Source of the DNA: a virus | Reading direction: 5' to 3' (one strand) | Length of the DNA stretch: 64,000 nt | IMG/VR virus record: IMGVR_UViG_3300032401_000006 | Coordinates: 1 to 64,000 of that record | In this document: one piece after another, positions 7,401 through 33,363 of the stretch | Layout of the letters: each line of letters starts with the position of its first letter | How positions within the stretch are numbered: the first letter of the stretch is position 1 | Position numbers and translations under genes: made by a program | Notes under the pieces: model-generated | The model's input: the letters and a program-made list of their open reading frames with translations, nothing else | Databases searched by the model: none | What the model was told of the DNA's origin: nothing

Positions 7401-8150
7401 GAACTGCTGGCGGTTAGATTCGACTTCTTGATATACCAGCTTCTGAACCGAGTCCTGCATCATGGCGTCTACGGATCCGGCATCCAAGTCCTTTAGTGAC
7501 GGATCACGCAATATGGTACCGACGCGATCGACATAGTCCCGGGCCCGAAACGTAGTATCTCCCGCCAGATATCCGGTATAGTTATGAAGCTGCTCGTTCG
7601 CGTTGAAGATAATCCTGCCCGCATTCTCTTCCGACATCTTTCCGACAACCGGCACGAGCTTGGCCCGATCTTCCGAGATGACTCTCAGATTCTTACTCAT
7701 ATTTGAGCGTATGTCGGAATACTTCGCCTGAGCCATCCTCATCTCAGGTGTGATTTCCTTCGCATCGGCCGGATAGTCCTTTATACTGATTCGTCCCCCA
7801 GTTTTTACAGACGGTGTCTTTTCTCCACCACCACTACCGCTATCTTCTGAACTAACAAACTGTCCGCCGTCAGAACTACCCTCCTCTGCACGTGGGTGCT
7901 CGGACTCATCCCACTTCTGAAGTTTTGACTCTTCGATAGCCTTAGTAATCTCCGCCTCGGACATCTTCAGTTTCTTTCCTACGACACCCCACGCCTGAGC
8001 AAACGCCTGCCCTTCACACTTCTTCGGATCTCCCCCCTTATCCGTACAGCGACTAAAAACAGAATTCCATATGGCACGCCACTGTCTCTGCTTTTTCGGG
8101 AGCAGCTGCTTGACCGGATCCGGCAGAGACTCGATCGTAGGGTACGGCAT
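4497..8150 (-). CDS. Prohead protease/scaffold polyprotein with ChaB and HD domains
   Basis: 1217 residues from ATG 8150 (TTAGGAGATTGGAA ahead); an upstream in-frame ATG at 8234 has no such site. In order: a ChaB-like domain (residues 1-58); the joint motif KWDESEHPRAEEG..GGQFVSS (79-101); an HD-type hydrolase (DHGIRH, VNHDIGY, DHKIF, KTHDD, RVSDN supply the metal ligands); then an XkdF-type capsid protease region (DQERRMVYGTMTTEDLDKQGD, MHDTTKAVGSAVEI, GTLKGFSIG). The tail is long, charged and coiled-coil-rich and resembles a scaffold. It lies just upstream of the capsid gene, as protease/scaffold genes do. The HD domain inside it is unusual; its substrate cannot be told. Confidence 0.75.
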   Translation of the reverse strand: MPYPTIESLPDPVKQLLPKKQRQWRAIWNSVFSRCTDKGGDPKKCEGQAFAQAWGVVGKKLKMSEAEITKAIEESKLQKWDESEHPRAEEGSSDGGQFVSSEDSGSGGGEKTPSVKTGGRISIKDYPADAKEITPEMRMAQAKYSDIRSNMSKNLRVISEDRAKLVPVVGKMSEENAGRIIFNANEQLHNYTGYLAGDTTFRARDYVDRVGTILRDPSLKDLDAGSVDAMMQDSVQKLVYQEVESNRQQFTDHGIRHLVGNALRADDIMVKMSDGQVSAEDRLAQQFIMVNHDIGYTSPLVREGGLRGIMVSGDHKIFSAAIAEEQRAQWNEGKIFSKAKYDQICNVIKTHDDTTIDFKGDLLGTSTRVSDNLSLFTSEKLPGMFHYVKGGELHLTQMGQAAAEKDFAKFDKLRDGLSKKIDSSNLSTALKRDLKASVKELNYMTPKFTLGVLAGHVTKIDKEGDLLAVTIKHDPFDAFLQKHFDMGQNKTDKLLKDYGIKDYTKTEYDLGGKMKIRVTGVKLRKDEDTEIGKDAIIKSTQEGQEMQVEKAATEGSVFLTLPISKVDQERRMVYGTMTTEDLDKQGDIVDYDAAKKAVEIWPKNIREMHDTTKAVGSAVEIMPNDAQRKIDIGVYISKGAQSTWEKLLDGTLKGFSIGVPHGRYRREPCEVQKGAELVKANRLFCDTFSEASLVDNPANAKATVYLVKSADGGLVTTEAVGILEAPEMTPAFKKAVEVGLAPAPPLVEKIEPVAEVEKALPAFIQDKIDAKKKKEEAEATGKKPGEEGSKEEEAKEKPEEEAKEDKKEKSESSDVRKFTEKEFSAINKQGEDVPWPTESSPALSEGGEIRFIPKSFGEVWEETEEVILFPMWTSTLARILLNALQSESLTATEKKDLMQKSWDEFLVEISEELTEEGGTVHGAEEKVEKAEGITTNINLTGYDQEKGSKKLTPDFSNLTAEQKKKMEEETAKKVEGTDLEKIGRRNNAADQAKIQAMHDHACDLGADCKVPENPKPVPAEEKFEAAVIEKITAAVVERIGQMDITKAVSVDVNKLLASSSYFQDAVKTAVDGSVEKVTKEVEGIQEDFASLEAIVTDEIKSVSTDLKAEVTNGVTKVAEITSKQEGDIAKVTEAVTGVTKRLDEQAQRLAVVEKAPALPIVKAVDPRQATVQGDAREQPGIDSEIITLTKLVDSTQDPLTKQALGRELALRMIRKRQ

Positions 8151-8285
8151 TTCCAATCTCCTAATTTTACGCTTAACTGACGGAGCCGGGTCGGAAAACC
8201 GATCCGAATAGTAGCACGTGGGGGTACGTCCCAAAAACGTCTACCGAGCTGTAAGGACGAGTTCCGAGCTGTTTTTGCACGTTTG

Positions 8286-8474
8286 CTAGTCTCGTCCGAC
8301 CCATTTGTCGTCTTTTATCAGCCCAGAACCGACTGCAAACCGGTAAACGGGCCGTTTCCGGAATGCGTCCAGATCTTTCACGGCCGCCAGGAATGCTTCC
8401 GATTTATAAGGCGGGAGATCCCACGTCATCTTCAGCCAGTCTTGGTTATCTGGCAGAGCATCTATGTTGATCAT
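8286..8474 (-). CDS. Small hypothetical head-region protein (62 aa)
   Basis: Starts at ATG 8474, sharing bases with the TGA of the preceding ADP-ribosyltransferase gene (TGATG), with GAAGG just before. The sequence MINIDALPDNQDWLKMTWDL and the rest are soluble with no motif I recognise. The 135-nt gap after it holds a duplicated ACAGCTCGG and no gene. Confidence 0.6.
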   Translation of the reverse strand: MINIDALPDNQDWLKMTWDLPPYKSEAFLAAVKDLDAFRKRPVYRFAVGSGLIKDDKWVGRD

Positions 8475-9703
8475 CAGTTTCCCTTCAACCGACGGACGAT
8501 GTACTTCGGATCCATACTCTCTGTATCGTCAAAAAAGTTCTCCTGGTTATATGAGAATACGGCGTGCATTTTAGTAACGCCTCCGAGTACGACTACCTCT
8601 GATTCGTTTACACAACCAAATCCGGTTCTCGGAGTGGCGATAATCTTACTGACCGGAATCTTGGCGGCAAGTATCATCGGGTACATATCGTCCTTACTGC
8701 CAACAAAATTAGCCGCCGTATTAACATTCGTAGAGAATGACGACATTGGTTGCATACGAAGCGTCAGCGTCTTGACAGCTACCCGCTCAGAATCTAGGGC
8801 ACTTCGCATCTCTGCCGTTACAGATTCTTGTGGTAGTCCAAGTCCACGAAATACGGTGACTTCAGTAACTCCGTTCTTCGCATAAAAGTCTTGCGTCTGG
8901 TTATACATCGTGCGAAGAAATACGCGTGCCCCTTTCATCTGAAGATCGGCTTCTGGCTTAACAACCCACTCTCCATACTGTTCACTAATATGCTCACCAG
9001 CGTGGTCTAGTGTAGCACCAGTAAGATTAAACTCCTTCTTAGCTGCAGCCTGAAGAACCATAGCCGTCGGATTATTATCCAGTGAAGTACTTGCCCATGA
9101 GTGAACAAGTTGTTCTTCTGGTGAAAGTGGTACTGGATAATCATCTGCGCGAAGTGTAAATACCTTCGTAAACGCATCATACGCAGCCCTGTCTTCTAGA
9201 CTGAGCTTCGATAGCCGATCCTGGAGATCCTTCTCAACCTGCTGCTTTAGCCATACTGCTCGGTCAGATGCTGGACTGCCGACGGCCATCTGACGGATAT
9301 AGTTATCATCCAGCTTCTTCCAATTATCTATATCACTTGAACTTGGGATATCACCCTCTCCAATAAATTCTCCAGATCCACTACTACTGGCAAAGCGGCC
9401 TCGCTCGTCATGCACGTCGTTGAACTTCTTTACAGGCTCTTCAGAAAACTCCAGCGGGTCGAAGCCGAGCATGGCAACCACTTCCGGTGGTGTCACGTCC
9501 AGCTCTTCGTCGTCATCGGGCTCATCGGCAAGAATAGCACGCCAATCTTCCGGCTCGTCAGCTCCGATAAACGTAGCTTGTGGGAAAGCTATGGCAGACT
9601 TCTCAACCTTCTCTTCACCCAGCTGCTTCCTAAGCCTGGCAAGGGTCGCCTCATCCACGGGCCTGCCAGATAGTGATACTACTGTAAAAGTATCAGCTGG
9701 CAT
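8474..9703 (-). CDS. Virion-region protein with C-terminal ADP-ribosyltransferase domain
   Basis: 409 residues from ATG 9703, 11 nt inside the end of the upstream gene; an in-frame ATG at 9772 lies deeper in that gene and is less likely. The N-terminal 90 residues are acidic. Then comes the joint motif KKFNDVHDERGRFASSSGSG (about 92-111), then a helical stretch, then a mono-ADP-ribosyltransferase fold of the R-S-E class: Arg286 in VTVFRG, Ser/Thr at 322-325 in SSFST, and the ExE pair 367/369 in VNESEVVV. The family transfers ADP-ribose from NAD+ to proteins. Delivery with the DNA, as for T4 Alt, is a plausible role but is inferred from position among head genes. Confidence 0.75.
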   Translation of the reverse strand: MPADTFTVVSLSGRPVDEATLARLRKQLGEEKVEKSAIAFPQATFIGADEPEDWRAILADEPDDDEELDVTPPEVVAMLGFDPLEFSEEPVKKFNDVHDERGRFASSSGSGEFIGEGDIPSSSDIDNWKKLDDNYIRQMAVGSPASDRAVWLKQQVEKDLQDRLSKLSLEDRAAYDAFTKVFTLRADDYPVPLSPEEQLVHSWASTSLDNNPTAMVLQAAAKKEFNLTGATLDHAGEHISEQYGEWVVKPEADLQMKGARVFLRTMYNQTQDFYAKNGVTEVTVFRGLGLPQESVTAEMRSALDSERVAVKTLTLRMQPMSSFSTNVNTAANFVGSKDDMYPMILAAKIPVSKIIATPRTGFGCVNESEVVVLGGVTKMHAVFSYNQENFFDDTESMDPKYIVRRLKGN

Positions 9704-12179
9704 CCCACGCACCCCATCTTCTAGTCTTTGACATCTGCTTATATACTTGCGCGACTGAGAATGACCGAGCATCCGTTATGGCATAATACTTGTAATACGC
9801 ACCCTTGTCATAAAACTTATTAAATACCGGATCAAAGACTACGTTATCCTTCTCAGCGAAACCGTGAAAGTAAACAGAATTCTCAAAATTGCCAATCTGA
9901 GGGTATAACGTAGCGTGAACCACTTTCCAGTCCGGGTTGTCGGTTACAAACTTTGCAGCCATCTCATAGCACAGCCCTCTACGTTCACCGTAATCATTCA
10001 CTACAATACCTTCAGGTGTGTCTACTTCCGTAGGCCCAGCAATAGCCGTAAAGATATCTACAGGGTTGCCATCCTCATTCAGATCGCGACGTAACACGTC
10101 TTCTGGCACGCCCTTCTCTATCCTGGCAGCGTCAGTCTCACAATATCTACCCTTATCCAGATATTTCGTACCCGGACCGTACTTGGTCGGGAATCGCATA
10201 TCTCTCTGATGCTTGGGCACCCCACTTCCGCCTCCGATAAACTTCCCGTCCTCTCCACGCGGGTGGTCTTCTTCGTTCCAGTCCTTCTCCAAATCAGTAT
10301 TCTCAAACTTGCCAATATGAGCACCTATGAGCCACTTCGAAAATACTACCGGGTGTATATAGGACTGAAGAGCTACAGTCGGTGTATTCCCCAGCTTGGC
10401 AGAGACCGCTTTCGCCACATCCTTTACGGCCAGCTTGTATGTCTTCTCGTCAGACGGAGCAGGCATCCTGGCAACCACCTCCTGAGCCGTACGTGTGCCG
10501 AGTAAGGTCCTAAAGTCCTTCGTCTGAAATCCACCATGATCCTGCACGTGCGTATAGTCGAGTACCTTCCCGGCTGTCGTGTTGAATATTCGTCCACTCG
10601 GGCCCGCAGCATCCCGCCTAGCCAAGAGATCCCTGGCTACCGCGCGGTCGTTTACCGGAATATCCAGCGCAACACCCTTCTTACCGACAAACACCAGCCG
10701 CACATTATTGGGACTGTCACCAACCACGTGCTTTCCCATAAGCGTCGTGGCCCCGTAGGCCTTTACCGCACCACCAGTATCGTTCTCACCTCCAGGACGA
10801 AGGCCGGTTCTCATAATTAAACGAAGTGCGCAGGCCTCTTCCTTATTACGACCGAACTGTATGTCCCGGTTGACGTCTGACGAGATTCGCCCTTCTTCCT
10901 TGTCGAGCTCCTCTATACGGGCAAACTTTGCCGTCGCCTGTTGCTCTTTCCAGGGCTTGCTATATATGGTTTGCTGACGGCCCTTGCTGTCATCTCCAAC
11001 AGCATGGATGTCATCATTGGGATCTTCACTATATCGTACGTTCTTCCAACCCGGAGGGATTCGTATGTGCTGAAAGTGCTCCGGCAGATCCTTTCCGCTC
11101 TTCTGCTTCCAGGTCTTGCTTTCCTTATCATAGATGGCATTCTGGCCACCACCTTCGGATACCCACCGGCCGCTCTCGTCCCGCTCCTGGTTCTCATCAA
11201 ACCTCTTCGCTAGAGCAGACTTCATCCGAACCGTGTATATGAACCACCGCTTCGGTCCCGGCCCGAGGTGCATACTGTATTCCGGCACCAACCCCTTCTT
11301 ACGCAGTATGGATACTGCGTGCTTCCACCCCTTTACGGGAGGGATGTCGGTGTGGTTCTCGGAATTAAAAATGATCTTCTTGCCAGTCTTCAAATCTCTG
11401 AGTGCCTGCTTAGCCTCGTCCGAGATCAGCTCGTCTTCTTCTCCGTGGCCACCACCATACGTATACTGGTTAATACCCTCCGGATTAGACTTCTCCAGCT
11501 TCTGAAGTATGGCAGTCTCAACCTTCTCTACCGCAGCTAGGAACTCATCGTCGTCCAAGTCATCCGGCCCGAAGTCACCGGGCATCGGAAGGAAGCTACG
11601 TACACAATTTGGGTGTGAGAGTGGATACTGCCGCGCCACTTCCAGACTGATGATCAAACCATCCACCGCAGCACAGTCCTCATCACCGTCACCGTCCGAT
11701 ACCATTACCGCTTGTAGACCCGCCTGAGCGTATCCCTCAACCTGCCCCCATTGAAGTGCGTAGCCAGTCTCGGTACGCGCGATCATCTTCGCACGCCAAT
11801 CTTCCATACCCGAGAACGTATCTTTTAGCCCTTCCGTAATTCCTTGCAGACCAGACTTATCCGCCAGCGCCTGGTTGAAGACCCCCAGCAGCCGCGTCCG
11901 GGTGGTGTTATCTATTCCATTCACCAGCTGCTTGGAGAAGTCATCCAGGTCTCGGACTATCTTCTCGCCCAGCCGTCGACTGCGGATGAAGTCCTCGGTG
12001 TTCACGTCACGGATGTCGAAGTTGTCCTCAGGCAAGATCGTACCTAGTGCAGCCGAGCCACCTGCAGCAACTACGTCACGCCAGAGGTCAGCTATCTGCG
12101 GCGCATACTTCTGGCTTATCTTATCCAAGTCGATGTCATTGATAATGGCATGGATCTCGTCTTGGGACAATTCAGACAT
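9693..12179 (-). CDS. MuF-type head protein fused to type IB topoisomerase and a C/H/D domain
   Basis: 828 residues in modules. (a) 1-200: MuF/SPP1 gp7-like minor head protein (MIARTETGYALQWGQ, GDEDCAAVDG, PLSHPNCVRSFLP). (b) 240-320: small alpha/beta unit. (c) joint motif KRFDENQERDESGRW (325-339). (d) 360-620: type IB topoisomerase, with candidate catalytic residues Arg461 (TGLRPGG), Lys500/501 (GKKG), Arg557 (KDFRT), Asn598 (LGNTP) and Tyr607 (QSYIHP). Spacings match the poxvirus enzyme (R-to-H/N 41, H/N-to-Y 9). (e) second joint motif DWNEEDHPRGEDGKFIGGGSG (633-653). (f) a domain with Cys737 (RGLCYEM), His772 (YFHGF) and Asp783 (VFDP), suggestive of a papain/transglutaminase-like fold but not assigned. 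Start ATG 12179 overlaps the portal stop by 8 nt. Confidence 0.8.
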   Translation of the reverse strand: MSELSQDEIHAIINDIDLDKISQKYAPQIADLWRDVVAAGGSAALGTILPEDNFDIRDVNTEDFIRSRRLGEKIVRDLDDFSKQLVNGIDNTTRTRLLGVFNQALADKSGLQGITEGLKDTFSGMEDWRAKMIARTETGYALQWGQVEGYAQAGLQAVMVSDGDGDEDCAAVDGLIISLEVARQYPLSHPNCVRSFLPMPGDFGPDDLDDDEFLAAVEKVETAILQKLEKSNPEGINQYTYGGGHGEEDELISDEAKQALRDLKTGKKIIFNSENHTDIPPVKGWKHAVSILRKKGLVPEYSMHLGPGPKRWFIYTVRMKSALAKRFDENQERDESGRWVSEGGGQNAIYDKESKTWKQKSGKDLPEHFQHIRIPPGWKNVRYSEDPNDDIHAVGDDSKGRQQTIYSKPWKEQQATAKFARIEELDKEEGRISSDVNRDIQFGRNKEEACALRLIMRTGLRPGGENDTGGAVKAYGATTLMGKHVVGDSPNNVRLVFVGKKGVALDIPVNDRAVARDLLARRDAAGPSGRIFNTTAGKVLDYTHVQDHGGFQTKDFRTLLGTRTAQEVVARMPAPSDEKTYKLAVKDVAKAVSAKLGNTPTVALQSYIHPVVFSKWLIGAHIGKFENTDLEKDWNEEDHPRGEDGKFIGGGSGVPKHQRDMRFPTKYGPGTKYLDKGRYCETDAARIEKGVPEDVLRRDLNEDGNPVDIFTAIAGPTEVDTPEGIVVNDYGERRGLCYEMAAKFVTDNPDWKVVHATLYPQIGNFENSVYFHGFAEKDNVVFDPVFNKFYDKGAYYKYYAITDARSFSVAQVYKQMSKTRRWGAWDAS

Positions 12180-14511
12180 TCGGCACCCTGGACTTGACCG
12201 TACTGATAACCACCTGAGCCTGCTCGGCGAACATGCGGGCGAAGATTTCCTTCATCCGCTCTTCAGACCGCTTACGTATAATTTCCAGCTTGGGATCTTT
12301 CTTGGGGTAGGTGACTTTTTTAATATCTTCACCCTTCTCGATAGCTTCCAACTGCTCCTGGATCTCCCGCGCCGTATCTAAAGGAATCTCTTTCGTCTCA
12401 AACTTGCGCAGCAGCTTTCCCTGCTTGATCCGGTTGCGGACAAACTTGCGCCACGTCTGAAGCTCAACGTCGCACTTATTTATGTCCACGCTATCACAAT
12501 CATATTCAACCTCGGAGAACAGCTCGTCTACCTTCGCCAGCTTCTCTTCTCCGGTATCACGGACGACACCAACTGCACGGTCATCCCAAAGCTCAACCAT
12601 GTCCCGGTCTTTTACGTTCGTTATCGGTAACGCTACGCCGATATGCTCCAGGCACCAGTCACGGATCAGTTTCTCTGTCTGCCAGTTCTGCGCCGAATCC
12701 GGGCTGCTGACTCTGGCCGTCAGGATGCGGACTTCCTTGCCCTCGCCAAGCCACTGCTGGACCCGCTCGACCATCTTCGGTACCGGATCACCTATGACCG
12801 ATTTGTCTTTCGTATGCTCGGCCAGCGTGCCATCCAGATCAACTCCGTACCAACCACCCTCGGTGCCGTCACCTTTTTCGACTTTTGTCTTTGCAGCCAA
12901 AGCCTTGGACTCGGGCTTCGTGGCCGGGGGGCCTGCCTTACCGCCGGCCACTGGCTTAACGACAGGTTTTAATTGCGGCGCGGCCTTGACACCTATTGCG
13001 GGTGGCACGACCGGTTTAGTACTAAGCGGCGTTTCGGGCAAGGTTGGATTTTGCATTGATGCGGTGGCTGCTGCGGTGGTCTCGGTCTGAGTATCCTGAT
13101 TCGGGTGCTTCTCGAAATAACTCTTGTACTGCTGTTGATAATCCTTCGCCTCGCCCTCGATCGGTATGAAGCCAGTCGGCGACATGATACCATTCGGGAT
13201 CCCGATGGGCTTCTTGCCGGCGTTCATCCGGGCCTCATCGATGGAAATGATGCCGCTCTTGACGAGCATGACATCCTTCTCGGCCTGTGCCTTCTCGTCC
13301 GTCGTCCGCTCTTCAGTGAATATAAACCTAAGCTGTGGCATGCCCTGAACGGTCTGAATTTCGTTCGTTATGATATCCTCGATGAAGTTCCAGAGTGGTT
13401 CTGTGGCTTCGTCTTCCGCCGTGTCGGCTGTCTCCGCCGTGGACCGGTTCATCTGTGACACGTACGGAGTGGGGCTGGTGTGAAAGATGGCACAACACCT
13501 ACGGACGATGAACTCGGATATCTTCGTGACCTTGATCGACATGTCACGCTCGATCATTCGCTCCAGCTTGAACCCGTCGGGCATGAAGTGAAGGCGGTTG
13601 CGAAGATTCGGATCACCCACGATCGAAGCATTGAACTTGTCCGTGAATTCCATGATCTGCGTCATCGACCATTCCTTCGGCAACGTGGCGAAACCAGCCG
13701 GTACATTTCCCTGTGTGAAGTAGTTCAAATCATAGATGTCCCGACGAAGAGCTATGTTTATGTTCAGCAGCAGCCACTCGACTTCAGACATGCCGTATGG
13801 ACTGTCGTTCGACGGATTCCGAACGCAGTACAAAATCTGATCCTGGGTGAAGCCCTCATAGACAACACCTTTTATGATCTGCTGAAACGCCGGGTAGGGT
13901 GGAGCGGGCGGGCGACCAGTGACGTCGATCAGCGGTTTGATCGTCCTCCCCGACAAGACCTCGTGCGCGGCAACACCTTTGCCATCCCGGGTCGGCCAGC
14001 GGGCGATCGTCGCCGCGTCGTATAGATACGAGTCTTCAAGAAACGCCGCGATCCAGATAGCGAACGAATCCCTGCCGTTCGGCTTCATCCAATATTTAGT
14101 CAACGCCTCCATCTTGTCCTGATACTTGTCGATCTTGTCGCGTTCTGCCTCGATCGGCACGATGGCCCATTCACGTCCTCTGATCTTGTTCTTCTTCGCC
14201 TCGATGCAATACCTGACCGGATCCCAAGCAGCCATCGCCTGAAGAACGTCGAAGCCCGTCAGTCCGGCCCGTGGCATGAACTGGATGTTGTACGACGATG
14301 GATAATCCCACTTGCGGGTGTTCGCCATGTCCCGCTCGTAAGGCGCCAACGGCTCACCCGGAGGCATGAAGCCCGTCGAGAAACCACCGAGGGCTTGCGC
14401 GGCCTGACCCGCCAAGGACTGACTGCGGGCGGTCAGATATGCTCCTGGATTCTTGGCGATCTCCGACATGTCCGTTCTACGAACCAGATTGGTGTTGATG
14501 CTGGCAGCCAT
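12172..14511 (-). CDS. Portal protein with C-terminal HAD-type phosphatase domain
   Basis: 779 residues. Residues 1-470 are a phage portal of the SPP1/HK97-like class (FQQIIKGVVYEGFTQDQILY, ALRRDIYDLNYFTQGNVPAGF, MNRSTAETADTAED), the dodecameric DNA channel at the head vertex. A Pro/Ala/Lys-rich linker (about 470-550) leads to a HAD-superfamily domain (553-652). It has the nucleophile motif DLDGT (Asp558/Asp560), a motif II Thr in ILTAR (598) and an acidic DD pair in LWDDRAVG. A charged helical tail follows. The start has no strong competing ATG; the stop overlaps the next gene. A phosphatase domain on a portal is odd, and its target is unknown. Confidence 0.85.
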   Translation of the reverse strand: MAASINTNLVRRTDMSEIAKNPGAYLTARSQSLAGQAAQALGGFSTGFMPPGEPLAPYERDMANTRKWDYPSSYNIQFMPRAGLTGFDVLQAMAAWDPVRYCIEAKKNKIRGREWAIVPIEAERDKIDKYQDKMEALTKYWMKPNGRDSFAIWIAAFLEDSYLYDAATIARWPTRDGKGVAAHEVLSGRTIKPLIDVTGRPPAPPYPAFQQIIKGVVYEGFTQDQILYCVRNPSNDSPYGMSEVEWLLLNINIALRRDIYDLNYFTQGNVPAGFATLPKEWSMTQIMEFTDKFNASIVGDPNLRNRLHFMPDGFKLERMIERDMSIKVTKISEFIVRRCCAIFHTSPTPYVSQMNRSTAETADTAEDEATEPLWNFIEDIITNEIQTVQGMPQLRFIFTEERTTDEKAQAEKDVMLVKSGIISIDEARMNAGKKPIGIPNGIMSPTGFIPIEGEAKDYQQQYKSYFEKHPNQDTQTETTAAATASMQNPTLPETPLSTKPVVPPAIGVKAAPQLKPVVKPVAGGKAGPPATKPESKALAAKTKVEKGDGTEGGWYGVDLDGTLAEHTKDKSVIGDPVPKMVERVQQWLGEGKEVRILTARVSSPDSAQNWQTEKLIRDWCLEHIGVALPITNVKDRDMVELWDDRAVGVVRDTGEEKLAKVDELFSEVEYDCDSVDINKCDVELQTWRKFVRNRIKQGKLLRKFETKEIPLDTAREIQEQLEAIEKGEDIKKVTYPKKDPKLEIIRKRSEERMKEIFARMFAEQAQVVISTVKSRVPNV

Positions 14512-14515
14512 CGGG

Positions 14516-14710
14516 TCAGTTCCTTCTCATCCAAAGCGATTTATAAATCCGCTCCATGCGTTTTATCTCCTCGACCGGTATCACCAAGATCAATCCATCC
14601 GTCTGACACCGGATGCGCAACATACCATCCGGGCGCTTCTGCTCATCAGTGATCGCCCAAGCCCAATCATGCTGTTGGACTACGGGTACTTTTTCAGATT
14701 CCATGATCAT
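14516..14710 (-). CDS. Small hypothetical protein (64 aa)
   Basis: ATG 14710 overlaps the TGA of the gene before it (ATGA), so translation is probably coupled; a second ATG at 14704 is also possible. The protein is MIMESEKVPVVQQHDWAWA followed by an RIRCQTDGLILVIPVEEIKR strand-helix unit. Compact and soluble; function not recognised. Confidence 0.6.
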   Translation of the reverse strand: MIMESEKVPVVQQHDWAWAITDEQKRPDGMLRIRCQTDGLILVIPVEEIKRMERIYKSLWMRRN

Positions 14711-14967
14711 TCTTGAATTACAGGTTCCCGTGGTGGTGTGAATTGATCCTGCGTGTCTTTGTACAGCTGTTTCAGCGATGCCTCGGCGACCTGCAAGGCC
14801 ATCCGCTTGTCGATGTTGTGGTGGCCAGCAAGGTGATTGTCTTCATAGATCTGCCGGACGTGATCAGCGCAAGTCTTGATGGTCCGTATCTCGACTTCAT
14901 GCCTGACGGCGCGGATCAGCCTGCGCTGCAGCGCGTCGGTCGTTATCCAAAGTCCGAAGAGTTTCAT
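14707..14967 (-). CDS. Small hypothetical helical protein (86 aa)
   Basis: Begins MKLFGLWITTDALQRRLIRA, only 4 nt after the stop of the 535-residue protein gene. It is rich in amphipathic helix (VRHEVEIRTIKTCADHVRQI, MALQVAEASLKQLYKDT) and ends Pro/Glu-rich. No family recognised. Position just before the portal gene suggests a small head or regulatory factor. Confidence 0.65.
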   Translation of the reverse strand: MKLFGLWITTDALQRRLIRAVRHEVEIRTIKTCADHVRQIYEDNHLAGHHNIDKRMALQVAEASLKQLYKDTQDQFTPPREPVIQE

Positions 14968-14971
14968 TTCG

Positions 14972-16579
14972 TTATTTCTTTGCCACCAGATAGATCGCTG
15001 TGTCCCGCGCCGAGCGATCGGTGGAGAACTCGTGGTGCTCCAACCTGGCGCCGAGCTTGTCCTTGTACTCGACGACGAAGCCCGTCGGAATCCGGTAGGT
15101 CTGAATCACGCCGTCGTTCTTGGTCTTGAACAGGCGGGGCTTTTCAGGTGAAGTGAAGACTTCTTCCGCGGGAGCGGTGTCGAGGATGTTCTTGTCCGTC
15201 AACTCCTGTGTAGTCACGATGACCTCACCCGTCTTGCCCGAGTTGCCCTGCGTGGAGAGGGCGGCTTCGGACATATCCGTCTCAGCTTTACCTTCGGGGA
15301 TCAGTGACGCTAAATCCGCAGTAGCAGGAATTACGTCAACACCAGGAGGGAGGTAGAAGTCATCCTTGTAGAGGTCGGAGGATTCAGATTTCTTTGTGGA
15401 TAGATACCATTGAAGACTCTTGTCACCCCCTTTTCCACTCGATACCGAAACCGTTCGAAGATATGAAGTACTGCTGCCAACGGCAGTTGAGTCTGGATTG
15501 GATGTTTTTATCTTAAAGTCATGATTCCAATTGCCTGTCTCTTTATCAACTGAAATTTGATGCATCCCACTAACGGTCTTACCACGATATTCCATTTGCC
15601 CCGGCTTGTCATAATAAGCCATATCCGGGCGAGCAGGAACACTGCGCTGCTTGTAGCCCGCCTCAGTCAAAGCTGGACCGCGTGCAGTATCACCTTCCTT
15701 TTTATCTCCATCACCAGAACTGCCTTCTCCTCCTCCCGATCCGCCCTGTTCGCCTGGCCTGCCTTCATGTCCGAAGTTTCCCGAGCCTGGCCCGCCCTTC
15801 ATGATCAGCCCCTTGAAGACGTTCGTCTCGGGAGCGAGTCTGATGCCGGTAAACATCGAGGAGTGATCGGAAGCCTGGACGGCCGGGGCGAGATCGTGAA
15901 ACGTCTGCGCCAGGGGAACAGCAGCGGGAAAGTCCCCGTGGGTCGCGCCGCACTGGGCCGAGGCTTCGGGCAGGGGCTGGTGGCCGGCAAACATCTGGTC
16001 GTGCTCGTGGAGGTCGGAGGATTCGGACTTATTTTTATTTTCAATACGACGATTGATAACTTCCCGAACGGCACCTTCCCTGTCCGGATATTTGACACCA
16101 GTGATAGGGTTGCCATTTGGACCGTGGGCAACCCAGCCCTTCGTTCCTTTATTCTTGTCCTCCTTGAAACGGGCATATCCAGCTTTCTCACCTCCCACCT
16201 TCACCATGCGGTTGTCTTCATGCCCTTTATCGTGGTGATCAGGGTGAAGTTCATGCTCTCGAATCGGAAATAGATGTGACCATTCTCCCGCTCCTCCACC
16301 GCCGGACCCGCTTCCGGACCCACCCTGCTCGCCTGGCCGCCCCTCATGCCCGAAGTTTCCAGACCCAGGGCCGCCCTTCGTCAAATCCTGCCTGGCCGCA
16401 ATCTCGCCCTCAAACTTCTGAGCCATCTCGGTATGGTGTTTGGCCAGGCGGGTCGAGCCCAGCGCCAGATACCTGTCCGCTCGCTGGCGGTGGAAGACCA
16501 GCTTCTCCTCGGCAGATCCCTCCTCGACGTCGACTTTGCCCTCGGGCTCCTCTTCCTGCTTCTTCAGTTCGGTCACCAT
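14972..16579 (-). CDS. Modular Gly-rich protein with two bracketed cassettes (535 aa)
   Basis: No overall function recognised. Two internal modules (residues about 69-190 and 262-402) each open with the phage joint motif GGPGSGNFGHEGRPGEQ and each close with KSESSDL. Their contents differ: module 1 is His-rich (HELHPDHHDKGHED) and ends in a small alpha/beta unit. Module 2 is a beta-rich stretch (YRGKTVSGMHQISVDKETGN). The flanks (1-65, 190-260, 403-535) look like one continuous acidic host protein, which ends in strands such as TYRIPTGFVVEYKDKLG. By eye the cassette DNA seems richer in A/T than the flanks. KSESSD also occurs in the protease/scaffold gene. Confidence 0.7.
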   Translation of the reverse strand: MVTELKKQEEEPEGKVDVEEGSAEEKLVFHRQRADRYLALGSTRLAKHHTEMAQKFEGEIAARQDLTKGGPGSGNFGHEGRPGEQGGSGSGSGGGGAGEWSHLFPIREHELHPDHHDKGHEDNRMVKVGGEKAGYARFKEDKNKGTKGWVAHGPNGNPITGVKYPDREGAVREVINRRIENKNKSESSDLHEHDQMFAGHQPLPEASAQCGATHGDFPAAVPLAQTFHDLAPAVQASDHSSMFTGIRLAPETNVFKGLIMKGGPGSGNFGHEGRPGEQGGSGGGEGSSGDGDKKEGDTARGPALTEAGYKQRSVPARPDMAYYDKPGQMEYRGKTVSGMHQISVDKETGNWNHDFKIKTSNPDSTAVGSSTSYLRTVSVSSGKGGDKSLQWYLSTKKSESSDLYKDDFYLPPGVDVIPATADLASLIPEGKAETDMSEAALSTQGNSGKTGEVIVTTQELTDKNILDTAPAEEVFTSPEKPRLFKTKNDGVIQTYRIPTGFVVEYKDKLGARLEHHEFSTDRSARDTAIYLVAKK

Positions 16580-16610
16580 GACGACTCCTTTCTCAATTCA
16601 GTGAGATCTT

Positions 16611-17171
16611 TCATCTTGTTTGCCTTGCCTCCAGGATTTCCTTCAGCCGAAGTCGTGCTTCCAAGAGCAGTTGACTCACCCAGCTGTTGCACACCCCCAA
16701 AACACGGGCGATCTCGTGCATGGGCATGTCGTCGAAATAATACATCGTGACGACCCTGCGCAGAAGCCGAGGCAAACGAGCGACGGCAGCGCGCAGATCT
16801 ATTTGCAGTTCGATCTGGTGAGCCGACGAGGCGACCGGGAGATCAACGGTGTGGTCCGAATCGTCGAGATGGATGAACGACGGGGATCGATCAATCCCAG
16901 CCCTGACTCGCTTTCGATGATTGCGTTCGAGCACGTCTGTCCTTCGAGCACCATCCAGGATGGATCCCGATACGCGACGGTTGGCGAAGGACGCGAACTT
17001 GGTCCCTCGCCGCGGATCAAACTTCACCAAAGCTTGCAACATCCCCACCATCCCGTCTTGCCGGATGTCGTCGAGTTCAACGTGAGACTTGCCGCGAACG
17101 TACATGCGGGAGACGATGGCGACCTCCCGCATCCCCTCCTCGATGCAATGCTCGCGTTGGGAATCAGTCAC
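16611..17171 (-). CDS. Sigma-70 family RNA polymerase sigma factor (FliA-like)
   Basis: 186 residues from GTG 17171, overlapping the previous stop by 8 nt. Region 2 is clear: ELDDIRQDGMVGMLQALVKF, then DPRRGTKFASFANRRVSGSI and LDGARRTDVLERNHRKR, the order seen in sigma28/FliA-type factors. Region 4 follows with a helix-turn-helix (MYYFDDMPMHEIARVLGVCN, then SWVSQLLLEARLRL). Such factors direct RNA polymerase to phage promoters. Placed just before the head genes, it may drive late transcription. Regions 1 and 3 are short or missing, as is usual in small alternative sigmas. Confidence 0.85.
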   Translation of the reverse strand: MTDSQREHCIEEGMREVAIVSRMYVRGKSHVELDDIRQDGMVGMLQALVKFDPRRGTKFASFANRRVSGSILDGARRTDVLERNHRKRVRAGIDRSPSFIHLDDSDHTVDLPVASSAHQIELQIDLRAAVARLPRLLRRVVTMYYFDDMPMHEIARVLGVCNSWVSQLLLEARLRLKEILEARQTR

Positions 17172-17616
17172 GTCGATGCTCCGTCATGTCCCGCGTCAGG
17201 TTGATCAACTCCTGCAGCAGGCACTTCACGTGGTGGGCGTCCCAATCCTTGAACGGCGTTCCTGGCTCCACGATCCTGGTCGTGTGCACGCCGCCGTCAG
17301 GCAACTCGTTCAACTCGATCGTGATCCGACGGTGTGCACATCCAGCAGAAGAATCTTCCACCGCCGTCGGTTGAGCACTGCAATCGACGGCGACGACATC
17401 CGCAGGTTCCCGCTCGGGCCAGTGCCAGGTCCCGACCGCGTCTCCAAAGCGAACGCCTGACTGGCTGTGATGACTGTGTATACTGCCATGATGATAAGGA
17501 AAAAATTCGACCAGCTCGATCTCTTCTTGATTGTCGTGGATGGCGGTCACTACCGCAGCCAGACAAACACCGCTCTCTCCTTTGAAATGCACGATCCTGC
17601 CGATGGTGGGTTTCAC
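17164..17616 (-). CDS. Hypothetical phage protein, GRIVHF/GTWHWPE family (150 aa)
   Basis: Starts at GTG 17616 after AGGAGGAAGAATC and overlaps the previous TGA (GTGA). The N-terminal half (MKPTIGRIVHF, CLAAVVTAIH, VGTWHWPER) matches a small beta-rich family common in phages, with no known function. The second half (RRITIELNELPDGGVHTTRI, DWDAHHVKCLLQELINL) looks like a strand pair plus helix and may be an added part. Confidence 0.65.
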   Translation of the reverse strand: MKPTIGRIVHFKGESGVCLAAVVTAIHDNQEEIELVEFFPYHHGSIHSHHSQSGVRFGDAVGTWHWPEREPADVVAVDCSAQPTAVEDSSAGCAHRRITIELNELPDGGVHTTRIVEPGTPFKDWDAHHVKCLLQELINLTRDMTEHRRD

Positions 17617-17855
17617 GATTCTTCCTCCTGCAAGCGTATCAGGTTGCCACGGGGACCGACCTTGTAGGTCCGGCCGGTCGGGAATTCTATCCTGTCTCCT
17701 GGCTTGGATTTGCGGGGCGTGCCAGAGATAGGGAGCATTGCCTTGAAGAGCTGCTCCGGCGACATCTGATCAACAGACTTCTCTGCTTTTTCGATTTCGT
17801 GAAGCTCCTTCAACAACAGGTTCTTGTCTTCGATCGATCTTCCGAGGCGGGTCAT
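17613..17855 (-). CDS. Small hypothetical protein (80 aa)
   Basis: ATG 17855 shares bases with the stop of the gene before (ATGA), indicating coupling. A charged helix (KNLLLKELHEIEKAEKSVDQ) is followed by a basic beta segment (KPGDRIEFPTGRTYKVGPRG). Not recognised. Confidence 0.65.
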   Translation of the reverse strand: MTRLGRSIEDKNLLLKELHEIEKAEKSVDQMSPEQLFKAMLPISGTPRKSKPGDRIEFPTGRTYKVGPRGNLIRLQEEES

Positions 17856-18310
17856 ACTGTTCCATCCTCCATCTGCTGCAAGAGTCCTTTGAGGGCACCC
17901 TGCATCCGTTCATAGTGATCTGCCGGCCACATGTGATATGGATTGTCAGGCTCGAAGAAAGTCTCAATCATCATTTGAGAAGGCCCCTGCTTGGTCAATG
18001 TCAGTGTGATTTGACACTGAGCATCACCGAAGACCGCCTTGTCGATGGGTGTGTTCGTATCTACTTCAGGGATCTTCACGCTGCCAGTGGGTGGATCCGT
18101 GCGCAGTGTGGCCCGCGCGCTGTTCTCTGTCTTGGGCGTGTCAGGATCGCAGACGTGAGGGTGCCACTCGGTATTCGGATAAATCGGACCATCGGGATAA
18201 TCGAATGCGTTTCCACCGTTCTCCAAGGCCATCTTGCAGATCATTCGCCCACACCGCTCACAGGCATGGGGCCCGTAGTAAATGATTCGTGAACTTCTGA
18301 ATGTCATCAT
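17852..18310 (-). CDS. Hypothetical protein with N-terminal CxxC (152 aa)
   Basis: Begins MMTFRSSRIIYYGPHACERC behind AAAAGGAGAAACTGAG. Residues 17-25 (CERCGRMIC) with HPHVC about 25 residues later make a likely zinc site. The C-terminal half is a strand-rich unit (AQCQITLTLTKQGPSQMMIE) plus a helix. First clear gene of the cluster that leads to the sigma factor. No family recognised. Confidence 0.65.
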   Translation of the reverse strand: MMTFRSSRIIYYGPHACERCGRMICKMALENGGNAFDYPDGPIYPNTEWHPHVCDPDTPKTENSARATLRTDPPTGSVKIPEVDTNTPIDKAVFGDAQCQITLTLTKQGPSQMMIETFFEPDNPYHMWPADHYERMQGALKGLLQQMEDGTV

Positions 18311-18355
18311 CTCAGTTTCTCCTTTTCCAGCGTAAGTAAAGAAATCAATTTCACT

Positions 18356-18563
18356 TCAATCCTCACCATCCGGCCCGAACGAAAACGAATCCGATGGGCT
18401 CATGCTCGGGCTGAACGAAAGTCCGTCCTCGTCGATGGGCGGGTCAACCTGCGTACTCACCGGAGAGATGGTGGTCGCGGCCTTCAAGCCAATCTTTACC
18501 CCCGACCGCGATACCTGCTACTGTTCCGATAAACCCATGTCTTCCTAACTTCATGTTCTTCAT
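18356..18563 (-). pseudogene. Small gene with apparent frameshift in a G run
   Basis: ATG 18563 follows a strong GAGGAG site and opens MKNMKLGRHGFIGTVAGIAVG, a likely membrane segment. Uninterrupted, the frame stops at 18444 after 39 residues. One base further on at the GGGGG run (about 18500), another frame continues as VKIGLKAATTISPVSTQVDP to an acidic end FGPDGED, stop 18358-18356. The joined 67-residue protein looks more natural. A sequencing error, a real mutation or a programmed +1 shift would each explain it. Confidence 0.5.
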
Positions 18564-19018
18564 ATCAGCTCCTCATATGATCTATTTCACCGTTTCACCG
18601 TCACGGCCGCTCACCGGAGAGCAAATCATGGAAGGTCAAAGTGCAAACCACAGAGAACGACTCAACAACAAAGAACAAAGCAACAACAAGATGTGCAAAG
18701 GTGTATACAGCAGCATCAAAGACGCAAAGCAGACTCACTCCGATGCATTTCATCAACTTCATCACGTGTGACAGAACCAAAGTCCGTTTGTCGCCCTCGA
18801 ACATCATGCTGCAGAGTCGAGACACGTGCTTCCCTGCACCGCGCCATATGTATGACAGAACGAGGGTTCATTTGACACCACCAAACCTTCGGACCCAAGG
18901 ACTGCTATACCGAATCGGTGGCTGGTTATAGGCAGCAGGGGGGTGAGGTGTCGCGTCACAGGTCACCAGACTCTGCCTGGTGGAGGTGTGTGTGCGACAG
19001 AACGGACTGTGGTCACAC

Positions 19019-19030
19019 ACTGTATACAGT
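19019..19030. promoter_or_regulatory. 12-bp palindrome ACTGTATACAGT
   Basis: Perfect two-fold symmetric site, typical of a dimeric repressor operator, about 30 nt downstream of the promoter-like sequence at 19058-19087 when read leftward. It is not a LexA box, whose half-sites lie further apart. Confidence 0.35.
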
Positions 19031-19057
19031 CCGTGGCTGACTGCAACGCGGGCGAGA

Positions 19058-19087
19058 CGTATAAACCCACGGACTATCTCCCAACAA
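19058..19087 (-). promoter_or_regulatory. Promoter-like TTGTTG-18-TATACG with GGGTT before -10
   Basis: Leftward -35 TTGTTG (19087-19082) and -10 TATACG (19063-19058), with CCGTGGGTT directly before the -10. The same GGGTTTATA context occurs at 23.24 kb and 63.77 kb, which suggests a shared promoter class. It would transcribe the head operon. Confidence 0.4.
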
Positions 19088-19119
19088 CCGCACCCAGGCG
19101 AGCCTCCAAGAGTTGTTGG
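19081..19119. repeat. Inverted repeat CCAACAAC / GTTGTTGG
   Basis: Perfect 8-bp arms separated by 23 nt, about 40 nt past the terminase stop. No U-run follows on either strand, so it is not a classical terminator. It overlaps the -35 element above. Confidence 0.4.
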
Positions 19120-19156
19120 GTGTATGACAGCCCCCTGAATACACGTGTTCTTCGTT

Positions 19157-20512
19157 TTAGGCACTGATTTGCTCCCTTGCCTGCTCTTTGCCCATGCGCT
19201 CAGCTCTCTGACTGTAGTAGTCCAGAAAGCCCGAGCACGCGTTCTCTATGAGCAGGTGCGTCGCCAAGTACACGAGTGCATCCATTCTGTTCGGAGATGG
19301 CTGCCCTGGCACCCACAGACACTGCTCGTCCTCCAGTTCGGGGAACGAGCCCACGTGGTGCATCTTGCCGTTCTCATAGAGTGCACTGACCGGATCTGCC
19401 CTGACTTGTTTGCCCCTGCTGGCATGCACCAGCGTGACTGGCACGTTGCCGTCGACTATGTGTATCGTGGTCTCGACCATCTCGCCGCCTTGATTGCTCT
19501 CCGCCACGATGAAGTCCGCCTTGTGTCGTTTGAAGACGTGCACGGCCTTGGTGGCCCAATCAAGCGGACTGCCCTGCATGGACGCGTCCTCCACCAAGTA
19601 CCCGTGATCGGCCGTCTTGCCACCGCACATGATGCCGGCCTCGTTTCCACCCGACGTGGTGGAAGGGTCTATGGCCACCGCCACGCGGTCGAACTCAGGC
19701 GGTGCGACGGGCAATCTGTATCTTTCTATTATGTCGCGTGTCCAGAGCGCTCCCGGTGCCTCGGTCACGTCTTCGGCGTCGAGCTCCATGCGCTTTGCTA
19801 TCGACGTCATGTCTTTGGATATCTCTTTGAGTGCTTCCGCACTGATGTAGCCATTTTCGCTCGACTTCCAGTGAAACGCCCTCCATCTGCTTTCTCGCCC
19901 TTCGGTCGACGCTCTGAGCTCTTCTTGTTTCGCAGCAGCAAACATCTTGGCAGCGTGTTGTGGGTCTCTCGCCTTGCTCGTGAACTTTCGTCTCGTCCAC
20001 AGACTGGGTGGAGTGTAGATGAAGACTGCATCACCGTTCGTGTCCAGGAGCATCGGAGCGCCCACCAACTCCCACGCGTCCTCGCACATCAACTGCCACT
20101 CGTCCAGTATGAGCAAGTCCGCGAAATCGCCCCTCAACGTGTCCGCGTTCCACGCAGTCTTCGCCCTGATGCGCTGCAGTGTTCCAGGGCGCTCTATCGT
20201 GTGCTCGGATTCGTTCTTCTTGAACACGCCCGCGTCTATCAGTGGCAGCAGTATCGACGTGACCCTGAACCAGAAGGCCTCGACTTGCTCTTGAGTGGGC
20301 GCCGCGTACAGAACTCTGTTGAACTTCGGCTGCAGGAAGCGCTTCACGGCTTTCTCCGACACACCTCTCGTCTTGCCGCCCCGTCTGCCTGCCCTGACCA
20401 CCGTTCGCTTGGCCGTGCAGTCTATGAAGAGCTTCTGTTGCGGGTTCAGCGCGCAATCACTGAGCTCCACCTTGTACTTGCGCTCTTGCTGCGTGTTGTA
20501 GCCTCTGCGCAC
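19157..20512 (-). CDS. terL: Terminase large subunit (packaging ATPase and nuclease)
   Basis: 451 residues from GTG 20512 (GAGGGAG 11 nt ahead). The N-terminal ATPase has Walker A RAGRRGGKT (about residues 40-48) and Walker B LLILDEWQ, with the coupling segment FIYTPPS. The C-terminal RNase H-like nuclease has VAIDPSTTSGGNEAGI, VAESNQGGEMV and MDALVYLATHLL, supplying its acidic metal ligands. It pumps DNA through the portal and cuts concatemers. The small-subunit-like gene lies 1.5 kb upstream with four small genes between, a looser arrangement than the usual adjacency. Confidence 0.92.
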   Translation of the reverse strand: MRRGYNTQQERKYKVELSDCALNPQQKLFIDCTAKRTVVRAGRRGGKTRGVSEKAVKRFLQPKFNRVLYAAPTQEQVEAFWFRVTSILLPLIDAGVFKKNESEHTIERPGTLQRIRAKTAWNADTLRGDFADLLILDEWQLMCEDAWELVGAPMLLDTNGDAVFIYTPPSLWTRRKFTSKARDPQHAAKMFAAAKQEELRASTEGRESRWRAFHWKSSENGYISAEALKEISKDMTSIAKRMELDAEDVTEAPGALWTRDIIERYRLPVAPPEFDRVAVAIDPSTTSGGNEAGIMCGGKTADHGYLVEDASMQGSPLDWATKAVHVFKRHKADFIVAESNQGGEMVETTIHIVDGNVPVTLVHASRGKQVRADPVSALYENGKMHHVGSFPELEDEQCLWVPGQPSPNRMDALVYLATHLLIENACSGFLDYYSQRAERMGKEQAREQISA

Positions 20513-20562
20513 CTTGTTCTGCTCTCCCTCTTTATGAGTGCTCTGCTTGGTTGAGTATATGA

Positions 20563-20775
20563 CTACGGTGTATGGATAGATGACGGCTTCTGCTGTGTGG
20601 ATGTGTGGCTGGTGTCGGGTGAAATACCTCTGTCTGACTTGAGTGTCTCTTTTGGTGTCTCTGATCGGCTGGTCATACGTATGGCGCGAATGATGTCAAC
20701 GTGACCGATGGCCCTGCCCAATGATTGAGGAGGCATTGGTGGTTGTAGGAGCGGCACCAAGCCCCACTCCACCAT
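20563..20775 (-). CDS. Small hypothetical protein (70 aa)
   Basis: ATG 20775 is preceded by AGAGAGGAGTGAGACAAG, a strong site, and opens MVEWGLVPLLQPPMPPQSLG. The second half is Ser/Thr/Lys-rich and polar. Its start makes sense only if the JAB-like gene upstream ends at 20782, in the alternative frame described there. No family recognised. Confidence 0.5.
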   Translation of the reverse strand: MVEWGLVPLLQPPMPPQSLGRAIGHVDIIRAIRMTSRSETPKETLKSDRGISPDTSHTSTQQKPSSIHTP

Positions 20776-21502
20776 CTTGTCTCACTCCTCTCTGGTGATC
20801 TTTGTTGCTTCGTCTACGATGATCGTTTCCCTCACTCTTCTTGAAATACGCGCTCTTGACCGCCGCCCTCACTGCCTTCTCGAACTCGGCTGGATGCTTG
20901 TCCACCGAATCTTTCATCGGACCTGAAAGATTGGCCGAGTACAGCAACTTGCCGGAGCGCCCCAAAGATTCCACCGTGGCGTGATCCACCATGTGCTCCA
21001 GATCATCCTGAAGGACCTTCCCGTCGTCTCTGTCCCTCAGCAGCGACTCCCTTGCGTTCTTGTACGCGCGGTCGTATTGCTCTCCCATCTGCTTGGCGTT
21101 GAACTTCCCGCCCCTCTCCGCCAGAAACGAGGCCCCGTGATGAGACACCGCCTCGATGGACTTGACCCCGGGGTGCTCCGCCAGATACCGCACGTCGCCA
21201 CCAGAGAGTGATCGGCCCGCCGGGTGGTTGTGGACCACGGACAATTGATTTGTGGGATCCTTCATCTTTGCTTCCACTTCTTGCGAGACGGTGGCTCCAA
21301 AGAAGTGGCCTTTTTGATCACCCACCACGCCACCATGCTGATCCAGCACGATCACGCGCTCGTTGCCTGTCTCTTTTCCGTGCGCAACAACCGTGCTTCT
21401 TGCACTCTCCACTCCCGCGGTGTACTGATTCCCGCGGAACTCGTGCCCCTCGACGTCGCCTTTGACTATGGCTGGCCAGGACGTTGGATTCCAGTTGTTC
21501 AT
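20696..21502 (-). CDS. JAB/JAMM-type metallopeptidase with phage joint motif; probable frameshift near its end
   Basis: Residues 14-30 hold the phage motif GDVEGHEFRGNQYTAG. A RadC/JAB-like domain follows: SVVHNHPAGRSLSGGD carries HxH, Ser and Asp of the JAMM zinc site, then VKSIEAVSHHGASFLAERGG. JAMM enzymes are zinc isopeptidases or peptidases; the spacing from HxH to Ser is one residue short of RadC but is seen in phage relatives. After AYFKK (about 20840) the frame turns into odd Arg/Gly sequence. One base over, it reads RVRETIIVDEATKITREE and stops at 20784-20782, just before the next gene's ribosome site. I favour a frameshift. Start ATG 21502 overlaps the previous stop. Confidence 0.65.
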   Translation of the reverse strand: MNNWNPTSWPAIVKGDVEGHEFRGNQYTAGVESARSTVVAHGKETGNERVIVLDQHGGVVGDQKGHFFGATVSQEVEAKMKDPTNQLSVVHNHPAGRSLSGGDVRYLAEHPGVKSIEAVSHHGASFLAERGGKFNAKQMGEQYDRAYKNARESLLRDRDDGKVLQDDLEHMVDHATVESLGRSGKLLYSANLSGPMKDSVDKHPAEFEKAVRAAVKSAYFKKSEGNDHRRRSNKDHQRGVRQDGGVGLGAAPTTTNASSIIGQGHRSR

Positions 21503-32130: not shown

Positions 32131-33054
32131 TCACCTCTTCGTGACACTGTAGCAATGAAAAACAAGACCTGCAGCCCCACATGAATACAGCGGGGCCATG
32201 AACTCCTCGATTATGATCGCAGCTACATCTCTCTTCGACTCATCGGAGCTGTTGAGAACAACAACTTGACAATATCCCAGAATGGCGTAGCGCACCTTCT
32301 CGGGGTCCTCGTCCTTCAGTCCACCAAGTACCGAGCTCACTTTCTTCCAGTGTGCCCGGTCGATCAGCACACGGCACAACTCGATGGTCTTGTTCTGCTG
32401 CTCGGCCGAGTGCTTGGCGACTTCCAATTGCTGCGCTTCGTCCACGGCGAGCACTTGATCCAGGATCTGTAGAGCGTTGCGAGGGTGGCCCATGCTGTCC
32501 ATCACGATCTGATCGTACACCGAGTCATCCAACTTCCGCTCCTCTGATTTCACCACACGCCTAAGCAGACGAAACATCTGCTTCTCATCCAACCGCTTGA
32601 CCTCGTACTGACTGCAGCGACTTAGAATCGTCGGCAACAGCTTCTGCGGATCAGTGGTGGCCAGGATGAAGTACACGTGTGCCGGAGAGTCTTCGAGTAT
32701 CTTCAAGAGCGCTGATTGGGCATCAGGTGTGGCACGGTGCACTTCGTCCAGCAACCACACCGTGCACTTGCTCTCCATGGGCTTGAACTGACTTCGCTGC
32801 CTGATCTCTCTTATATTGTCGATGCCGCGGAGGTCCGTGATGTCGATCTCGTTGAAGTCTCTGCCCTTGGAGTCCAGCACGCTGGCTGTGATCCTGCCTA
32901 GCGTGGTTTTCCCGCAGCCCGTCGGTCCGTGAAGCAGCATGGCATGCGGTCGGTCCTTCTTCTCCAGGTCGGCTTGCAGCGTGTTCACGGTCTGCTGGTT
33001 GCCAACCACGTCATCAAAAACTTGAGGGCGGTATCTGTGATAAAGCGACATCAT
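32131..33054 (-). CDS. DnaX-like sliding clamp loader subunit
   Basis: 307 residues of AAA+ clamp loader: YHRYRPQVFDDVVGNQQTVN, Walker A HGPTGCGKTTLG, Walker B VWLLDEVHRATPDAQ, the SRC motif PTILSRCSQYEVKRL and sensor 2 GHPRNALQILDQ. It loads the beta-like clamp encoded at 38.1-39.1 kb. Single loader gene, shorter than bacterial DnaX and lacking its C-terminal domains. Confidence 0.9.
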   Translation of the reverse strand: MMSLYHRYRPQVFDDVVGNQQTVNTLQADLEKKDRPHAMLLHGPTGCGKTTLGRITASVLDSKGRDFNEIDITDLRGIDNIREIRQRSQFKPMESKCTVWLLDEVHRATPDAQSALLKILEDSPAHVYFILATTDPQKLLPTILSRCSQYEVKRLDEKQMFRLLRRVVKSEERKLDDSVYDQIVMDSMGHPRNALQILDQVLAVDEAQQLEVAKHSAEQQNKTIELCRVLIDRAHWKKVSSVLGGLKDEDPEKVRYAILGYCQVVVLNSSDESKRDVAAIIIEEFMAPLYSCGAAGLVFHCYSVTKR

Positions 33055-33118
33055 GATCTCCAGTTCACTTTATTATTCTCAAGAGCGGTGTTGACTTTCA
33101 ACAAAAGTTCAACAATAA

Positions 33119-33337
33119 TCAATCGTCATCGTCATCTCGGAGACGTGGTGACCGATACGAAGACTTGTACTTGCTCTTCATCATGCGTCCGGCGGTCTTG
33201 TCTGACAGCCGCGTCATGTTCATCGGACGCCATCCATAAGCATTACCAATGTACGTCCACACATCACCATCCTCGTCCAACGCTGTGAGCAGTCCATCGT
33301 TGGCCACGAGCTGAACAAACTTGCTCTCTCGCTCCAT
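33119..33337 (-). CDS. Small hypothetical protein (72 aa)
   Basis: ATG 33337 behind AAGGAAGGAATCAC. A beta-rich start (FVQLVANDGLLTALDEDGDV, WTYIGNAYGWRPMN) is followed by a basic stretch and a final run of five Asp. No family recognised. Confidence 0.65.
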   Translation of the reverse strand: MERESKFVQLVANDGLLTALDEDGDVWTYIGNAYGWRPMNMTRLSDKTAGRMMKSKYKSSYRSPRLRDDDDD

Positions 33338-33363
33338 GTGATTCCTTCCTTTTCCGTCAAATA

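Follow-up and report, generated by a model that had tools for sequence, protein, structure and literature searches.

Foreign proteins can be loaded and delivered by phage T4 through a peptide of roughly 10 residues, one of its capsid targeting sequences (CTS) (PMC9026906). The idea of delivery for MuF and polyvalent proteins originates with Iyer et al. (2017, 2022), who dealt with polyvalent effectors and with effectors fused to MuF, portal or protease (PMC5512222, PMC9503650), and Jamet et al. (2017) described polymorphic MuF toxins of temperate phages, in which a variable C-terminal toxin follows MuF. The Dar antirestriction system of phage P1 employs internal head proteins that are loaded via DarA and Hdf and co-ejected with the DNA (PMC12810830). 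The present analysis deals with conserved peptides, here called tags, that stand in front of unrelated enzyme domains in the head region of the IMG/VR virus record IMGVR_UViG_3300032401_000006. The window, meaning the whole stretch of DNA that was analysed, comprises 64,000 nucleotides of this 68,847-base record, and its head region is transcribed off the minus strand. Three peptide families were recognised, A (GGPGSGNFGHxGRPGxVGGS), B (KGDxxGHxFxGNQYT) and C (WDExxHPRxExGxF), and the chances are about even that they are portable, interchangeable marks of three types on effector cargo that is loaded into the head and co-injected.

As with the T4 CTS, head cargo of various kinds bears a short peptide at its N-terminal side, for which a loading role is proposed, and the T4 head also carries an ADP-ribosyltransferase (PMC9026906). 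In contrast to the CTS, the tags are also internal and repeated, they fall into three types with about 20 conserved residues, and they occur with HI1409, Mu-like, lambda-like and PF04860 portals; removal by the prohead protease, a feature of the CTS, is hypothetical for the tags. The effectors of Iyer et al. share with the tagged proteins both their fusion partners (MuF, portal and serine protease) and their types (ADP-ribosyltransferases, Nudix, zeta toxin, PBECR, InPase and LPD domains), but the available portions of those papers do not name a junction peptide (PMC5512222, PMC9503650), and many tagged proteins here stand alone, most of their domains having no recognised family. Likewise, the text of Jamet et al. 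(2017) contains neither "linker" nor "motif", and the variable domain here follows many head proteins or none. The connection to P1 Dar is a B-like tag inside the DarA-like internal head protein of Xanthomonas phage Rb1, although no tag is described for P1 and DarA accounts for 2 of the 95 segments that precede internal tags. Tag strings were found in no paper when open-access full text was searched, with subscription papers and most preprints lying outside that search. The fusion of effectors to head proteins was already known, and the recurrent junction peptide is likely to be new.

The original prediction had quoted such motifs before an HD domain, an ADP-ribosyltransferase, a topoisomerase, a Cys/His/Asp domain and a JAB-like peptidase, as well as at the opening of two cassettes, and all were located at those places on the minus strand. 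When the six reading frames of the window were searched with tag profiles derived from IMG/VR copies, five of the seven tags proved individually significant (both A tags, the B tag and two of the C tags), the best match to reversed sequence having an E of about 2. The A tag GGPGSGNFGHEGRPGEQGGS opens both the first and the second cassette of one open reading frame (ORF), 14972-16579, at 16316..16375 (E=1.9e-10) and 15737..15796 (E=2.5e-12), each copy being also a pattern match, and the B tag KGDVEGHEFRGNQYTAG lies 13 residues from the N terminus of ORF 20696-21502 (21413..21463; E=3.7e-13). One type C tag separates an HD-like domain from the ChaB-like N terminus ahead of it (WDESEHPRAEEGSSDGGQFVSS, 7848..7913; E=4e-6), and another stands before the Cys/His/Asp domain (WNEEDHPRGEDGKFIGGG, 10227..10280; E=9e-10). 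The C copies before the ADP-ribosyltransferase (FNDVHDERGRFASS, 9383..9424; E=0.033) and before the topoisomerase IB (TopoIB) domain (FDENQERDESGRWVSE, 11154..11201; E=0.19) are degenerate and marginal, the former standing in the right place, and both were accepted by position and not by score.

The observation is real and extends far beyond one phage. In 12,810 non-redundant ORFs of fetched IMG/VR DNA, the profiles detected 851 tags, spread over 580 ORFs, and the reversed ORFs contained none; the count is no measure of prevalence, because the loci were mostly fetched by motif. DNA patterns for A, B and C are all widely matched in IMG/VR, with at least 213 A and at least 214 B among the matches listed; an open frame surrounds all 213 and 214 of these, 98-99% of them in frames of at least 100 codons, and the reversed A and B motifs had no match in the same DNA pattern scan. 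Single contigs carry up to 13 tagged ORFs or 22 tags, and dissimilar tags, A with C or all three together, are found in one contig. The presence of the tag pattern across many phages is solid. Among cultured phages, Pseudomonas phage Orimi01 has a portal followed by a C tag and then an Alt-like ADP-ribosyltransferase, and a C tag lies near the portal C terminus of Xanthomonas phage PhiXhv-5 and of a Helicobacter pametensis prophage; C tags also occur in IMG/VR records that, judging by their record numbers, probably resemble isolate genomes. A tblastn comparison of A-type tags with cultured phages returned nothing useful, and low-complexity filtering possibly hides the tag there.

The tags sit at the boundaries of diverse domains, as had been proposed, and are not equally common elsewhere. 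Only 1.5% of them are fewer than 60 amino acids from a C terminus, against 14% under random placement, and 2.6% of the gaps between tags are shorter than 90 amino acids, against 36%; the tags therefore precede domain-sized units, and almost every tag stands before a domain of its own, on the N-terminal side. Of the tags, 285 lie within 60 amino acids of the first Met and 438 are farther in, and at nine loci the tag starts 10-38 amino acids past the HPxCRC-like motif at the C terminus of MuF. Nor do the tags favour non-virion genes: where a head gene was recognised (33 records), 121 of the 123 tags are on the head-gene strand, at a median distance of 5.8 kb from a head gene as against 15 kb for random points, the B pattern had 0 matches in 84,980 prokaryote genomes, and C-type queries had no match in E. 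coli genomes or plasmids.

Column statistics reveal a conserved zone from about -7 to +6 residues around the tag core, beyond which conservation falls to background and a Gly/Ser linker follows. This Gly/Ser-rich downstream side, the junction position and the wide shuffling of domains behind the tags would fit mere flexible linkers, or relics of cassette boundaries that tolerate domain swaps or help recombination, with no recognised function of their own. Codon usage was compared between tag copies within a genome, chance being the rate expected if codons are drawn at random according to the usage of that genome, and the same-codon rate was 0.40 against 0.35 for A, 0.540 against 0.537 for B and 0.57 against 0.46 for C, the last figure resting on few pairs. 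The search did not bias this test, because its patterns took in all synonymous codons. The domains behind tag copies of the same genome are 7% identical position by position, and this, together with the near-independent codon use, means that selection acts on the peptide and not on the DNA. The copies are old or independent and their amino acids have been kept. The codon test rules out that the cassettes were duplicated recently and that the tag is a site of DNA recombination. An unselected linker also fails to explain why residues such as GHxFxGNQY persist while the codons diverge nearly to chance, and tags open single-domain genes as well, so that the linker or relic explanation is disfavoured and has little probability.

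A few examples suggested that an amphipathic helix is conserved upstream of type A, but the column statistics gave no support to it. Several stand-alone B-tagged genes (L138, L183, L184, L192, L416, L421 and others) share a common leader such as MSGFTTNELLYPLTKGD before the tag; its codons often differ between genes, and it is possibly a second element of the signal.

What the tags join was assessed with Pfam. Among 225 segments after tags were nine ADP-ribosyltransferases and one ART-PolyVal, six zeta toxins, three PI3/PI4-kinase-like proteins and three PBECR nucleases, along with Nudix, TopoIB, SAM lyase, CdiA C-terminal, RelA/SpoT and polyvalent LPD domains and a few head proteins, while roughly four in five had no Pfam match. 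By their sequence matches, the recognised domains appear to be a typical repertoire of injected effectors. Before internal tags (95 segments), the recognised head proteins were portals of four Pfam families, MuF, DUF2213 and S78_2 proteases, DarA_N and ChaB, and the recognised effectors included Acb1, Nudix, 2H phosphoesterase and InPase. Tail, terminase and major capsid families are absent from the best 25 families listed for the joined segments. Two features of the head-fused effector class are present, namely fusion to MuF, portal and maturation protease, and effector-type domains in the late head region. Among the 95 preceding segments are two with a match to the anti-CBASS protein Acb1 (best 5.7e-39) and a single one with a match to an intein splicing domain.

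No significant similarity among A, B and C was detected by profile-profile alignment, and eleven A/B hybrid tags (KGGPGSGxxxGHxFxGNQYT) were found. After trimming and masking of linkers, the 386 segments formed 274 clusters, and tag types are mixed in 20 of the 24 clusters with at least three members, 12 of these containing A, B and C together. Relatives of the window's ADP-ribosyltransferase follow an A tag at one locus (L017) and a B tag at another (L199), those of its Cys/His/Asp domain follow A tags (L060 and L052) and a B tag (L192), and TopoIB relatives follow clear C tags (L264 and L338). The tag types are exchangeable, in that the same effector family carries A, B or C. In the record that contains L060 (G025), a match to the terminase large subunit at 32382-33689 crosses three in-frame TGA codons, which suggests that this phage may read TGA as a residue.

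With respect to delivery, gene context, fusion partners and effector repertoire all point the same way. The tag would mark the N-terminal side of an effector domain bound for the head interior and, as its most likely role, would be recognised during head assembly, so that the cargo is drawn into the prohead or kept there and is later co-injected with the DNA into the bacterium; we infer that virions contain the tagged proteins and inject them. Where effectors are fused in polyproteins, the flexible region around the tag could serve as a natural release point at which the maturation protease frees each effector. Loading explains the stand-alone tagged genes and cleavage by the maturation protease explains the tags after portal and MuF, and of the two, loading has the edge. 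The original idea of a shared cargo system stands insofar as one kind of tag precedes many unrelated enzymes of the head region, but its wording, attachment to virion proteins, is too narrow, because many tags open stand-alone genes.

Cleavage might also be the whole function, the maturation protease cutting at or beside the tag and thereby freeing an effector from portal, MuF, protease or polyprotein for ejection. Propeptides of internal proteins are cut in this manner in P1 (PMC12810830) and T4 (PMC9026906). Tags do lie where proteins retained in the virion are joined to other domains, with up to 10 tags in one ORF of 2650 amino acids, and the sole tag stretch modelled, that of WNEEDHPRGEDGKFIGGG, has a low model confidence (predicted local distance difference test of about 40 or less). 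Maturation proteases were recognised in 24 of 47 records by two Pfam families alone, and type A is associated with DUF2213 and type B with S78_2 (Fisher p=0.003, a figure that ignores relatedness). A prohead protease would, however, be expected to have a single site sequence, and what was found instead is that dissimilar peptides (A/C or A/B/C) coexist in one phage and that DUF2213 proteases are present with both A and C tags. In 17 ORFs the tag is 2-10 residues from the earliest possible start, where cutting would free almost nothing. Cleavage sites are usually shorter than about 20 conserved residues, which makes the tags long for such a site. Processing as the sole function is accordingly unlikely, albeit the strongest of the competing explanations.

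Several points weigh against head loading and co-injection as the role of the tags. No shared receptor has emerged, and the occurrence of tags with at least four portal families and two maturation-protease families sits badly with a single specific receptor; when whole contigs were clustered by blast in search of a common receptor, the tags themselves confounded the clustering and no candidate came out. A loading signal should be superfluous for an effector that is already part of a portal or MuF fusion, and for the about 80% of post-tag domains that have no recognised family, the word effector is an extrapolation. The sampling was motif-based, with no unbiased census, and the tag profiles were partly built from the same collection. 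The occurrence across unrelated head types might fit instead with a role at ejection or after entry, the tag either helping, as an unstructured leader, to thread the cargo through portal and tail or being recognised as a peptide by some host factor; the invariable N-terminal position and the low confidence of the modelled tag are compatible with this, but so exact a set of residues would be unnecessary in a simple leader, and a role at this late stage is rather improbable.

Loading and co-injection of tagged cargo, if true, would allow a simple profile to find candidate first-contact effectors of anti-defence and host takeover, most of them in no known family. It would also make a short peptide available as a candidate loading signal for phage heads, a counterpart of the T4 targeting sequence for phages without T4-type heads. 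A bolder version, in which the three peptides form one exchangeable address code for head cargo across unrelated head lineages and suffice by themselves to identify hundreds of injected effector families, most of them unknown, is tentative, its probability being somewhat short of even.

The tagged genes of the window, all on the minus strand, can be described further. The maturation-protease polyprotein (4497-8234) has a ChaB-like N terminus (NCBIfam 0.017), followed by the HD-like domain (6795..7787, approximate limits) and an S78_2/XkdF-type head maturation protease domain (6177..6464; PF14550 4.8e-5, PHROG head maturation protease 5.4e-32). Conserved H..HD..HD..D residues characterise the HD-like domain, and a 31% identical relative behind an A tag (L111) keeps DHGxxH, HDxGY, THDxT and RVxDNL, although Pfam HD does not match the window domain and reaches 0.09 with the relative (NCBIfam 0.025). 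The ADP-ribosyltransferase-like protein (8474-9772) has a weak DRAT-like domain at 8567..8905 (PF07357 2.2e-4). Next is the gene (9693-12179) joining MuF, TopoIB and the Cys/His/Asp domain, in which the SPP1 gp7-like MuF minor head domain (11604..11876) is weak by PF04233 (0.0039) and TIGR01641 (0.0012) and is matched by PHROG head families at 2e-14 to 2e-11, and the TopoIB domain (10368..11072) is a solid prediction from PF01028 (1.6e-20) and PF21338 (1.1e-4). The Cys/His/Asp domain (9696..10217) has a Cys and two His that are invariant across four relatives; its Foldseek matches to papain-like folds are weak, the model being too weak to name a fold, and it may at best be called papain/transglutaminase-like. 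The stand-alone, B-tagged JAB-like protein (20696-21502) has a visible HNHP motif in its domain (20876..21412) and weak tblastn matches to a Rhodovulum phage minor head protein (3e-6) and to a DarB-like protein of phage PBC5 (7e-5), and the stand-alone double-cassette protein (14972-16579) has no Pfam, PHROG or NCBIfam match to its domains.

Among these genes, on the same strand, are also the terminase large subunit (19157-20512), a sigma-70-type factor (16611-17171) and the portal protein (12172-14511; PF04860 1.7e-17, PHROG portal 9.3e-48). Near its C terminus, the portal has a HAD-like insert (12640-12852) that lacks a clear tag and is preceded by KVEKGDGTEGG alone, and portal residues 554-624 are matched by PHROG families of kinase/isomerase type. 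Four IMG/VR contigs (L357-L360) encode portals 96-100% identical to that of the window, and the phage or its close kin recurs in several samples.
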